A stretch of DNA of 37,958 bases from Oscillospiraceae bacterium (GTDB lineage Bacteria > Bacillota > Clostridia > Oscillospirales > Acutalibacteraceae), in assembly GCA_029218825.1 (NCBI GenBank), contig JAQXSC010000114.1:1-37958 (forward strand). Direction: 5' to 3'. Each line of letters begins with the position of its first letter. Position 1 is the stretch's first letter. Below the pieces are notes generated by a model. It searched no databases, had not been told where the DNA came from, and saw only the letters and a program-made list of their open reading frames with translations. Made by a program: the position numbers and the translations under genes. Positions 728 through 7,519 of this stretch are shown piece by piece.

Positions 728-1422
728 GTATAAGTTTATCAATATTCATCAGAGAGCCAAAACTGTACCAGATGCGGATGTCGTAATTGTATCGTATAAG
801 TTTATCAATATTCATCAGAGAGCCAAAACACGGCGGCAGCAAGAATGACACACTATGTGTATAAGTTTATCAATATTCATCAGAGAGCCAAAACGGTAAC
901 ATACCGGCATATTTCTGCGCTTGTGTATAAGTTTATCAATATTCATCAGAGAGCCAAAACCACAGGGATTTCAGATACACATTGTCAATAGTATAAGTTT
1001 ATCAATATTCATCAGAGAGCCAAAACAGTTTGGGCTTTTGCCATTTGTGAAGTTGGGTATAAGTTTATCAATATTCATCAGAGAGCCAAAACACGTAACA
1101 CCGTTAGCCTTTTTCATCTCAAGTATAAGTTTATCAATATTCATCAGAGAGCCAAAACTCCTTTGGTGTGTTGTCCTCTGCGTTCATAGTATAAGTTTAT
1201 CAATATTCATCAGAGAGCCAAAACCTACTCCAAGTAACATATTTACAATTAACTGTATAAGTTTATCAATATTCATCAGAGAGCCAAAACGCAATAATAT
1301 TCGGAGCATTCTAGTATATTGTATAAGTTTATCAATATTCATCAGAGAGCCAAAACCTTGCAGGATGTTGCTGAACGATCCAGACCGTATAAGTTTATCA
1401 ATATTCATCAGAGAGCCAAAAC
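728..1422 (-). CRISPR. Type II CRISPR array: 11 identical 36-nt repeats, 10 spacers (29-30 nt)
   Basis: Plus-strand repeat GTATAAGTTTATCAATATTCATCAGAGAGCCAAAAC at 728, 794, 859, 925, 991, 1057, 1123, 1189, 1255, 1321, 1387. The minus-strand form GTTTTGGCTCTCTGATGAATATTGATAAACTTATAC is the crRNA sense, shown by pairing with the tracrRNA. Confidence 0.98.
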
Positions 1423-1473: not shown

Positions 1474-1758
1474 TTATAATTCGATAATATCTCTTTTGTC
1501 AAGATAGTTTTCTTCTGCATATTTATCTCCCAATAGAATTTCCATAGAATCGTATTGCCTGTCTGTAATTGTCAGCATCCTGATTGAGCCTTTCGGTGGA
1601 AGTATCCCTTTTATGTATTTGGCATACTTTTTTGCATCATCATTGTTTCTTGTTGTTCTTGCATACACAGAGAATTGAACCATAGAAAATCCCAAATTAA
1701 TCAGATTTTTCCGGAATTTCGAGTACTGCTTTCTCTCGTCCTTGGTTGATGTTGGCAC
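1474..1758 (-). pseudogene. cas2: Cas2, 5'-truncated (lacks N-terminal beta1 strand/catalytic Asp region)
   Basis: Begins GTG CCA ACA TCA..., (V)PTSTKDERKQYSKFRKNLINLGFSMVQFSVYARTT...; matches Cas2 after the usual M..L(V/M).FDLP.. N-terminus, which is absent. Confidence 0.85.
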
Positions 1759-1936
1759 CGGCTTGCGTAAGTGTAGTAATTACACTTACGCTAAGCATTG
1801 CAGATCGGTTCTCTATTACAAGAGAGTATATATCATCAACAGGGACTCGGTTTTCACCTTTACTCGATGTTACTACTAACCAATTATTTTTGATATTTAG
1901 CTTTTCTCTGGCAGTAACGATAACGGTTCTCCATGT
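1697..1936 (-). pseudogene. cas1: Cas1 N-terminal remnant
   Basis: Minus strand frame reads TWRTVIVTAREKLNIKNNWLVVTSSKGENRVPVDDIYSLVIENRSAMLSVSVITTLTQAGAN then enters out-of-frame cas2 sequence and stops at TAA 1697-1699. Typical Cas1 N-terminal domain; no start codon in frame; not in the supplied ORF track. Confidence 0.85.
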
Positions 1937-4900
1937 TTCGTAATTTCCCCACCTTTTTTACCAAGAATATCTACACTAATCTTCTTGATTGAAGCCTTTT
2001 GGCCAATTTTGATTGTTTCGTCTTTTCCTTTCGCATTCTTTCTATTATTATATCTTGTGAAATATAATGAATTTTGATTGATATTATTAGCAGAAAGATA
2101 ATAGCCTCTGCGCACATCATTGGTTCTTGTTATCTCTAAATAATCTCCATAAAACAAATACATAATATGTTTACCATAATCCTCAGGATATTGATATGTA
2201 GGCTTCAAGTACAATTTCTTATCTTTGTGAACAATATGATTTCGCTTTATACCCTGTAGGTTAATTAAGGTTTTTGTGGATTTACCTGATGATTTATTCT
2301 CTATGCTTTTTAGTGTTTCATACACCTCTACACAGTAGTACTTGTTATCAACCAGAGCAGAATGGTTATTTTCTCCAATGGCCTTTATTGACAGTGGATC
2401 TGTTACAGATTTTGCTTTTGCAACATTATCATCTGTTATTGCTCCGCTATACTTTCTTTTTGGCTTAATGGACACAATCGGCATCTCAATGGAATTTGCA
2501 AATGCTAAATCATCGTAGTAAAACTTGCGCAAGTCTGCTCTAAACATTTCTTCTATCTCTTCCTCTGATTTATCCTGACATTCGTTGATAAAATGTTTCA
2601 TCAGTTCTTGGTCACGCACTCTACATTCAACCTCAAGCCTTAAATTTTTAATTAGCGATGGAGTTTCCTTTAGATATTCTAACATTGGGCGGGATACTTT
2701 TGGAGATATGCCATAAAACTTCATAAGTGTATCTACGCACCGATTTAGACTTCTTTCGTATTCCTCTGTCCTGACCTTTCCGGCACCATAATAAATATCC
2801 CTAAGCTTTCGATTTTCAGCAGTAATTACAACCATTGCCGGAGTGCAATTTGCTATTACTATTGCATCTACTGCATGGTCAAAGTATGTTATATCCTTTA
2901 ACTTTGATTTGTCCGGCTCACCCCATGTTTCTTTATTCAACCATTGGCGTCTAAGCATAGATGTAATAGCACCCTTTACGGCATACACTTCAGGTCGTCT
3001 TTCGTCCGACTTTTCTCTGCTGAATTTTAGATTATCCGTGAAATACTTAACTAAGAATTTAGATATGTAGCGTGTATCGTTCAAATTACGAGTTTTCCAA
3101 TTGGTTAACAGTTTTTCAGCCTCTTCACTCTTTAATGTTTCAAGCATCAAATAGGCATACTTTGTTTTGTTTATGACCTTATCTTTCATCAGTTTGTTAA
3201 CATTTTTTATGTAATTAGTTCTTTTCTCTCCTTCTAAGTACATTAACGGAACCCGATTACCCTTATTTTGATTTTCTTCTGCAATAACCAATGCCTTATT
3301 ATTTAGCGTATCATCCAAAATAAGTGAAAACGGAACAATGTGGTCAATTTCATAGGTCTTATTCTCGTTTTTGATTGCCTCTTCCTTTTTAGAAATATCC
3401 TTTCCGGAGTACAGGCACTTCCAGCCCTGCGTTTCTCCCAATATATACCTGTCTATATAACCCGGCTTAACTTCACTTTCCTCAATCTTAAGCAATTCAG
3501 AAATTGCCTTTATGGCATTTTCTCTTTTTTTCCTGTTATCCTGTTGACCTTTTTTGATTTTATTTCGTTTTTTGGAACTTGTGTTCAAATCCTTGCTTAC
3601 CTCAATATTCAAGGCATTAGGTACTCCATACCTATCAACAATAGCATTTACTACTTTTCTGGCTTCGTTTATGGCACGGAACACTACGGGATTTTTAGCA
3701 TATTCGCTATTTGCATCAAAAGGAGGAAGTTTTTCGTACTTTATACCGTTTGTAGCAGAAAACTTGTCTTTTAATACTTCCGCTTCAAACTCTCCGGATA
3801 ACTTACCGTTTATAAAAGCATTAATGGTATCAATCATAAACTCATTGCTGGCTTTTGCAGTTCCTGAAAACTGTTGTCTTGCAAGTTTATTAATTAAACT
3901 ATCATTATCTGAAATTTCGGGTATTTTCTTTAGTGAATTAATCCTTCTGCTTGGAGTGATATCCTTTGATAACGTCTCTCCAATTCTATTTAGAAGGCTG
4001 TTAATATCAAGATAGTTTTCGCTGATTAATTTCTTCCAATCAAAGCCATTGTCTTCAAATATTGGCTTAACAACCTTTATATACTTAAAGCAATCCGCTA
4101 CATTTTTTCCGTCATCATTGCTTGAAGTAATGATTTCAAAATCTAAGTCCTTGGCTATTGAATTGATTTCTTTTTTTGATATTGAACCGTTTATCAGTGC
4201 AGTATCTATTATTTTATCCATTAACACATTCGGAACCTTAATAACCTCACCTGTTTGTGAGTTTACATATCTGAATTGTGATAACTTATTGACTAAAGCA
4301 AATAAATCTCCTATAACGGAAAATCTAAATCCTCTCGGCTTGTCCGGATAGAACTGACAGTTACCTATTGAATCATAAAATCCTTTATATGGTCTGAAAT
4401 TATCATTTACATCTCCGGGGCCGTCCTCAAAATCTCTTCTGCTGAAAATAATATTCCAAATATCTTCAATGGCTTTTTGAGTTAAGCAAGGATAGTATTC
4501 AGCTTGCTTATTAAGAATATCATATACTTCTTTCTCATACATTTTTGTAGGAAAGAGAATACTAATATTATCCTTACTATTTCTGTACTTTTTTCTATTT
4601 GTAGTTTCATCTCTAAAATAAGGGTCTTTAATTATCGCCTCTGCAATAGAACGATAATTTCCTTTTTCTATTATGTCGGCGGTGGATTTCATTGCAAGCT
4701 GATTTTTACCTTCATCGCTCTTTTTATCATCCTTAGGCACCTCATAGAACGGTTTATATCCCCTGTGTTTTGCGATATGCATTAAACAAGCAGATAATTC
4801 CTCAGGGGTAATCTTCTCATCAAGAGCCTTTGCTCTTAACTCAATAACATCATGAGAATTATCCTTAAAGAACTCAGCAATTTGAGCCTTTGTGGTTAGT

Positions 4901-5145
4901 CCTATTTCCTGAATATAATTTTTCAGTCGTTCTCTTCTATGGACTCTTCGTCTTTGATTACGGCGTGTTCCACGATATTCTCTTCTCTGTTGTGCATAGC
5001 TTTTTCTGCTTTTTTCATCTCCACTTTCACTGGAATCAAATATTCGTACGCCAAAATCCTCAATGCGTTTGCAGTTTTCTTCGTTTCGGATAACCGCCCA
5101 GCCTACTGACCCGATTCCAACATCCAATCCAATAATATATTTCAA
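1897..5145 (-). CDS. cas9: CRISPR-associated endonuclease Cas9 (type II-C-like, 1082 aa)
   Basis: RuvC-I YIIGLDVGIGSVGWAV, Arg-rich bridge helix, RuvC-II ALNIEVSKDLN, HNH YEIDHIVPFSLILDDTLNNKALV, RuvC-III YFDHAVDAIVIA; TTG start. Confidence 0.97.
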   Translation of the reverse strand: MKYIIGLDVGIGSVGWAVIRNEENCKRIEDFGVRIFDSSESGDEKSRKSYAQQRREYRGTRRNQRRRVHRRERLKNYIQEIGLTTKAQIAEFFKDNSHDVIELRAKALDEKITPEELSACLMHIAKHRGYKPFYEVPKDDKKSDEGKNQLAMKSTADIIEKGNYRSIAEAIIKDPYFRDETTNRKKYRNSKDNISILFPTKMYEKEVYDILNKQAEYYPCLTQKAIEDIWNIIFSRRDFEDGPGDVNDNFRPYKGFYDSIGNCQFYPDKPRGFRFSVIGDLFALVNKLSQFRYVNSQTGEVIKVPNVLMDKIIDTALINGSISKKEINSIAKDLDFEIITSSNDDGKNVADCFKYIKVVKPIFEDNGFDWKKLISENYLDINSLLNRIGETLSKDITPSRRINSLKKIPEISDNDSLINKLARQQFSGTAKASNEFMIDTINAFINGKLSGEFEAEVLKDKFSATNGIKYEKLPPFDANSEYAKNPVVFRAINEARKVVNAIVDRYGVPNALNIEVSKDLNTSSKKRNKIKKGQQDNRKKRENAIKAISELLKIEESEVKPGYIDRYILGETQGWKCLYSGKDISKKEEAIKNENKTYEIDHIVPFSLILDDTLNNKALVIAEENQNKGNRVPLMYLEGEKRTNYIKNVNKLMKDKVINKTKYAYLMLETLKSEEAEKLLTNWKTRNLNDTRYISKFLVKYFTDNLKFSREKSDERRPEVYAVKGAITSMLRRQWLNKETWGEPDKSKLKDITYFDHAVDAIVIANCTPAMVVITAENRKLRDIYYGAGKVRTEEYERSLNRCVDTLMKFYGISPKVSRPMLEYLKETPSLIKNLRLEVECRVRDQELMKHFINECQDKSEEEIEEMFRADLRKFYYDDLAFANSIEMPIVSIKPKRKYSGAITDDNVAKAKSVTDPLSIKAIGENNHSALVDNKYYCVEVYETLKSIENKSSGKSTKTLINLQGIKRNHIVHKDKKLYLKPTYQYPEDYGKHIMYLFYGDYLEITRTNDVRRGYYLSANNINQNSLYFTRYNNRKNAKGKDETIKIGQKASIKKISVDILGKKGGEITKHGEPLSLLPEKS

Positions 5146-5193: not shown

Positions 5194-5227
5194 CCAAGTA
5201 AAGAACTTAGGAATTTGGTGCGTATGC

Positions 5228-5284
5228 GTATAAGTTTATCAATATTCATCAACACAATTATAAGTTTATCAATATTCATCAGAG
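5228..5284 (+). repeat. Tandem partial CRISPR repeats / doubled anti-repeat (30-nt period)
   Basis: 5228-5251 GTATAAGTTTATCAATATTCATCA (repeat nt 1-24) and 5259-5284 TATAAGTTTATCAATATTCATCAGAG (repeat nt 2-27), same orientation. Confidence 0.95.
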
Positions 5285-5340
5285 TTCTAAGATAAGGCAA
5301 TATGCCGTAGGGTAGTGGAAACCCAATTACACCACACTTT

Positions 5341-5373: not shown

Positions 5374-5546
5374 GATTATATTGATAACATTACAATCAGA
5401 TAAATACTTATATCACTCACTAAACAAAATTACTGCTTTTGCAGTCTTCTGCATATTTTTAAGTATTATAGCATTTTAAACTAAATTTAGCAATAATTTA
5501 TTATAATTTTATATATGTTAACAGTTTTGTGAACAAGCTTTACTTT

Positions 5547-6519: not shown

Positions 6520-6555
6520 ATGGGCTGTGGCAGATTTTCATCTGCCACAGCCCAT
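6520..6555. terminator. Strong bidirectional hairpin
   Basis: ATGGGCTGTGGCAGA-ttttca-TCTGCCACAGCCCAT. Confidence 0.75.
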
Positions 6556-7488: not shown

Positions 7489-7519
7489 GGGCTGTGGCAA
7501 ACTATAATTGCCACAGCCC
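7489..7519. terminator. Hairpin terminator downstream of rpe
   Basis: GGGCTGTGGCA-aactataat-TGCCACAGCCC; same stem as 6520-6555. Confidence 0.75.

Follow-up and report, generated by a model that had tools for sequence, protein, structure and literature searches.

A type II-C CRISPR-Cas locus with remnants of cas1 and cas2 and a probably frozen spacer memory

Organization of the locus

The window, i.e. the whole stretch of DNA analysed here (37 958 nt), is one entire contig from a MAG (119 contigs, 92.7% complete). On its minus strand cas9, a cas1 remnant, a cas2 remnant and a CRISPR array follow each other in this order, with no other gene in between. The cas9 gene (1897..5145) encodes a type II-C protein of 1082 aa that matches TIGR01865 with an E-value of 5.7e-172, has no internal stop and carries RuvC and HNH motifs at 6, 513, 600, 627 and 756; its closest counterparts among solved structures are Cas9 chains of 1055-1154 aa. 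The array (728..1422, minus strand) consists of 11 identical 36-nt repeats, which read GTTTTGGCTCTCTGATGAATATTGATAAACTTATAC on the crRNA strand, and ten spacers of 29-30 nt. A tracrRNA is predicted on the plus strand (5194..5324), with a promoter (TTGACA-17-TATAAT) just upstream, a 5′ arm, anti-repeats and a nexus hairpin. The crRNA repeat and the anti-repeat are predicted to form a duplex (z=-11) in which an internal loop separates a lower stem of 7 bp from an upper stem of 27 bp.

The operon layout cas9-cas1-cas2, with neither csn2 nor cas4, is that of type II-C, and related loci show the same order. Two further hallmarks of this subtype are present, namely a Cas9 with both RuvC and HNH and a tracrRNA with an anti-repeat complementary to the array repeat; a third, a functional Cas1-Cas2 adaptation module, is missing, since 769 nt and a start codon are gone. 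The CRISPR subtype is set by the effector, and loss of the adaptation module leaves a locus in its subtype. With Cas9, tracrRNA and array intact and cas1-cas2 lacking, the locus also has the composition of interference-only systems of the CampyICE1 kind.

The plasmid collection gave no DNA match to the locus, and the phage collection gave distant Cas9 only. Rfam matches to mir-302 and cobalamin fell below threshold and were dismissed. Elsewhere in the window we observed two strong hairpins, at 6521-6554 and 7489-7519, ∼1 kb apart, with the common stem GGGCTGTGGCA / TGCCACAGCCC; possibly they are a small dispersed repeat or terminators.

Intact relatives

Searches with the exact repeat sequence in genome_contigs yielded the loci L049 and L050; L041 was found via Cas9 in the family, and L075, L076 and L077 by Cas9 alignment in the class. 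Searches with exact peptides in genome_contigs and viral_contigs gave no confirmed relative. A complete cas9-cas1-cas2 set is carried by L050, L041, L075 and L076, while L077 has cas9-cas1 up to the contig end; arrays with closely related repeats are found in L050, L041 and L075. The four complete members of the clade have the gene order of the window and Cas9 proteins ∼37-43% identical to that of the window, and the repeats of L050, L041 and L075 agree with the window repeat at 31-34 of the 36 positions. Unlike in the window, cas1 and cas2 are complete in these four loci, the start codon is ATG and there are 769 nt more between matching points.

At 3537-3572 of L049, the end of a contig from a Ruminococcus MAG, there is a single copy of the identical 36-nt repeat; a biotin-synthase-like gene lies nearby. 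No Cas9 was seen in this MAG, its cas genes being either unassembled or absent.

Remnants of cas1 and cas2

The frame TWRTV...QAGAN (1751..1936, minus strand) corresponds to the first 62 codons of cas1. It matches TIGR03639, the type II Cas1 model, at residues 2-60 with an E-value of 9.1e-10; the Pfam Cas_Cas1 match (E=0.0047) stays under the family cut-off. The fragment shares 52% identity with the N-terminal part of the intact L050 Cas1, whose gene lies directly 3′ of a related cas9, and the alignment gives 39-52% identity to Cas1 of its own clade versus 16-21% to genus-typical Cas1. The frame overlaps the end of cas9. There is an in-frame stop upstream, and no ATG, GTG or TTG occurs from that stop to TWRTV; where 5/5 relatives have an ATG start, the same codon (codon 1) in the window is ACA. 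Judged by this comparison, the loss of the start codon is a second lesion within cas1. Both the Cas1 N-terminal frame overlapping the end of cas9 and its want of a start before TWRTV had been described in an earlier sequence-only reading of this DNA, which had proposed to check the ∼60-aa fragment for Cas1 similarity; the profile match and the relatives bear all of this out.

The cas2 remnant (1474..1758, minus strand; 94 codons from GTG) was recognized by TIGR01573 (E=7.3e-21) and by alignment with nine intact Cas2 proteins. Its match begins at profile position 12. The first nine residues, i.e. the MRIIVFFDL-type first beta strand including the conserved Asp, are absent, as one would expect from the earlier description of a 5′-truncated Cas2 behind the cas1 piece, and of the 34 invariant Cas2 positions that the remnant still covers, 27 are kept.

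The deletion and its junction

From the cas1 codons that match the end of the fragment to the proline codon of cas2 we measured 769 nt in all four relatives with both genes (L050, L041, L075 and L076; the contig of L077 ends 124 nt beyond cas9-cas1), and thus ∼769 nt are absent from the window. The earlier estimate was ∼0.7 kb lost from cas1-cas2, and the related loci, five in number, support such a deletion beside an intact Cas9, tracrRNA and array. As 769 equals 1 modulo 3, the reading frame is broken and no Cas1-Cas2 fusion frame is left; a fusion protein was considered and rejected, as the two frames do not join.

The junction lies at 1748..1758 (minus strand), with a candidate shared TGCC at 1757-1754. 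It had been proposed that the join sequence GTGCCAACATC fits both genes, suggestive of microhomology. This sequence has no clear fit to Cas1, because GAN of the window stands against GAH or GVH in the relatives; their cas2 genes have TTG or TTA followed by CC. at the proline. The asparagine codon of the window most simply derives from cas2, and the microhomology is probably ∼4 nt long (TGCC), so a shorter version of the proposal is plausible; the shared stretch could reach 11 nt. Exact matches over 14 nt to the junction region do not occur elsewhere in the genome, its own hairpin excepted, and therefore the join was not formed via a long repeat.

A perfect 11-bp hairpin with a 5-nt loop (1765..1791) is situated inside the cas1 remnant, ∼6 nt from the junction region. 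Relatives do not have it at the corresponding position, and shuffled windows contained 0-2 perfect 11-bp hairpins of such kind each. Slippage at this hairpin is a possible cause of the deletion.

The identity of all 11 repeats had been taken as a sign of recent loss. A young lesion would fit both the identical repeats and the stop-free remnants, which together point weakly in this direction; repeats, though, are no clock.

Interference and the fate of the memory

The nuclease motifs of Cas9 and the repeat/anti-repeat duplex make interference by the stored spacers likely. Protospacers lend no support to activity of the locus, as none was found. The phage collection held no target for any of the ten spacers, and the viral contigs held none for the two spacer patterns searched there, of which one extended into the repeat and was ill suited as a probe; in the own genome there was no spacer self-target besides the tracrRNA and one weak 28-nt match.

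We read the locus as a type II-C system with decayed adaptation genes (the ∼769-nt deletion plus the loss of the start codon) that would still interfere with a frozen memory, and we give this reading, drawn from the sequence, a probability of roughly 0.8. In the proposed course of events the deletion fused cas1 at codon 61-62 with cas2 at codon 10, and cas1 lost its start codon too. The locus would then yield no working Cas1-Cas2 integrase, and its memory would be frozen unless another Cas1-Cas2 acts on it, while the array would supply crRNAs that base-pair with the tracrRNA and direct Cas9 to cleave DNA with a match to one of the ten spacers. The sequence-only reading had called the locus competent for interference and incapable of acquisition unless in trans. 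Its first half appears likely; the loss of acquisition has to be limited to the locus itself, given that the MAG contains a second II-C system.

This second system appears to be split over two contigs. One (C30; G000, L023; 4034 bp) carries a second Cas9, 968 aa up to the contig end, which is 87-88% identical to Cas9 from two members of the genus; the other (C22; G000, L064; 4593 bp) starts within an array whose repeats are of the type belonging to that second Cas9. We infer that C30 and C22 adjoin, in which case the cas1-cas2 genes of the second system would sit in the gap between them. In the assembled genome the Cas1 profile had no match and the Cas2 profile matched only the cas2 remnant, so the search for another cas1-cas2 that had been suggested found none; the contig ends fall where genus loci carry cas1-cas2, however, and therefore the genome-wide absence of Cas1 may be a limit of the assembly.

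Alternative explanations

Could the locus still gain spacers in trans, by way of the Cas1-Cas2 of the second system in the same cell? The genome does have the second Cas9 and an array of the matching kind, and in 7/7 genus loci examined cas1 and cas2 stand beside the genus-typical cas9. A precedent is also available: a VI-B array of Flavobacterium columnare that has no cas1-cas2 was shown experimentally to acquire spacers through the Cas1 of a II-C system despite differing repeats (PMC8092290). Yet the repeats of the window and of the second system match at just 20 of 36 positions, the cas1 remnant is far closer to Cas1 of its own clade than to the genus-typical one, the two arrays are oppositely oriented relative to their cas genes and the cas1-cas2 of the second system is itself absent from the assembly. 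We consider acquisition by this route possible in principle but unlikely. It is less probable still that the deletion is an artefact of assembly or strain mixture, or is confined to a sub-population, with cas1-cas2 of the cell intact. A MAG in 119 contigs, and not quite complete, does invite such a suspicion; against it, no more than ∼4 to 11 nt are shared at the join, the rest of the genome contains no long repeat of the junction region, the interior of cas1 was not found in the bin and the start codon of cas1 was lost independently of the deletion. With one gene hit twice, an error of assembly is improbable.

Least credible of all is that the shortened Cas2, started from the GTG at 1758, is still produced and has taken another role, e.g. 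as a nuclease or regulator. Its frame is open over 94 codons and most of the covered invariant positions are retained, but the open frame may merely reflect young decay, the protein has lost the first beta strand of Cas2 and with it the conserved Asp, and no ribosome-binding site was seen by eye ahead of the GTG. Decay of the adaptation genes beside a Cas9 that would still interfere is thus the reading we prefer.

The tracrRNA of the Cas9 clade

Upstream of the functional anti-repeat (5259-5291, plus strand) the tracrRNA of the window carries the upper anti-repeat a second time (5228-5251). The same arrangement was observed in 6/6 tracrRNA genes of the clade (the window, L041, L065, L075, L076 and L077), and in these relatives the tracrRNA is located upstream of cas9. 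Eight genus-typical II-C loci have one anti-repeat copy and none of them (0/8; four scanned, all eight read by eye) shows the clade arrangement.

In each of the six clade loci the 5′ arm is predicted to pair with the lower anti-repeat (p ≤0.017 each, mononucleotide shuffle). Among 720 arm/anti-repeat pairings the summed energy is attained by the true one and its equivalent alone (the anti-repeat is identical in two loci); since the related sequences are non-independent, this should not be read as a strict probability. Per-pair covariation is modest: 87% of the cells are paired, two pairs show changes in both partners and the shuffle control gave 26/500. The alignment behind these values, arranged by hand with N at gaps, leans towards the structure. 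Ahead of each arm of the clade lies a promoter-like pair spaced by 17 nt, which puts the predicted start ∼0-6 nt from the helix and leaves too little room for a guide such as tracr-L has (PMC11417352); the start sites are to be taken as predictions, since promoter-like sites at a looser cut-off are common here (1.65 per kb). Near cas9 the 5′ end of the tracrRNA has no guide match of at least 9 nt; one of 8 nt at 5538 was not counted. Patterns of the tracrRNA had no match in viral contigs. Of the features that define tracr-L, pairing of the 5′ region in cis with the anti-repeat is thus predicted throughout the clade, whereas the ∼11-nt guide to the cas promoter is missing.

A tentative model, which we regard as possible rather than probable, is that this Cas9 clade uses a self-inhibited tracrRNA, with an extra copy of the upper anti-repeat, a 5′ arm that takes the place of the crRNA and no room for a guide. 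The arm could keep both the tracrRNA and Cas9 inactive as long as no crRNA precursor has bound to the free first copy and pushed the arm aside. Such self-inhibition could, e.g. prevent the capture of cellular RNAs; here it would operate within a frozen-memory locus. In the literature, as far as our partial coverage goes, we found no description of the arrangement, and it may be a more novel feature of the locus than the loss of the adaptation genes. It would also matter more than the decay, as a possible built-in control on the loading of a II-C Cas9.

Comparison with known systems

The locus gives a snapshot of a Cas9 system in which learning was lost and defence apparently kept, seemingly with a second II-C lineage in the same genome. 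It thereby offers a natural test of whether the Cas1-Cas2 of one II-C system can serve an array with a very different repeat. The VI-B / II-C pair of F. columnare resembles it in having an array without cas1-cas2 of its own and a II-C system in the cell; there acquisition in trans was established by experiment, whereas here it would be a possibility in principle, and the second cas1-cas2 of the genome is not assembled.

The tracr-L of the Streptococcus pyogenes II-A system (PMC11417352) is, like the tracrRNA of the clade, long and has a 5′ region in the place of the crRNA. It differs in that it is a natural guide with an 11-nt match to the cas promoter, while the II-C tracrRNA described here is predicted to have no guide.

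Type II-C Cas9 without cas1-cas2 was already described in Campylobacter (PMC8743540). The Cas9 of CampyICE1 and the orphan cas9 of Campylobacter coli share with the window the II-C type, the lack of adjacent cas1-cas2 and short arrays; they too are probably cases of interference with frozen memory, and another II-C system may share the cell. Loss of adaptation genes beside Cas9 is therefore known and unsurprising. In the Campylobacter case the genes are absent, and CampyICE1 resides on an integrative element; in the window the remnants of both genes and the scar of the deletion are visible, which makes this locus a well-preserved new case.
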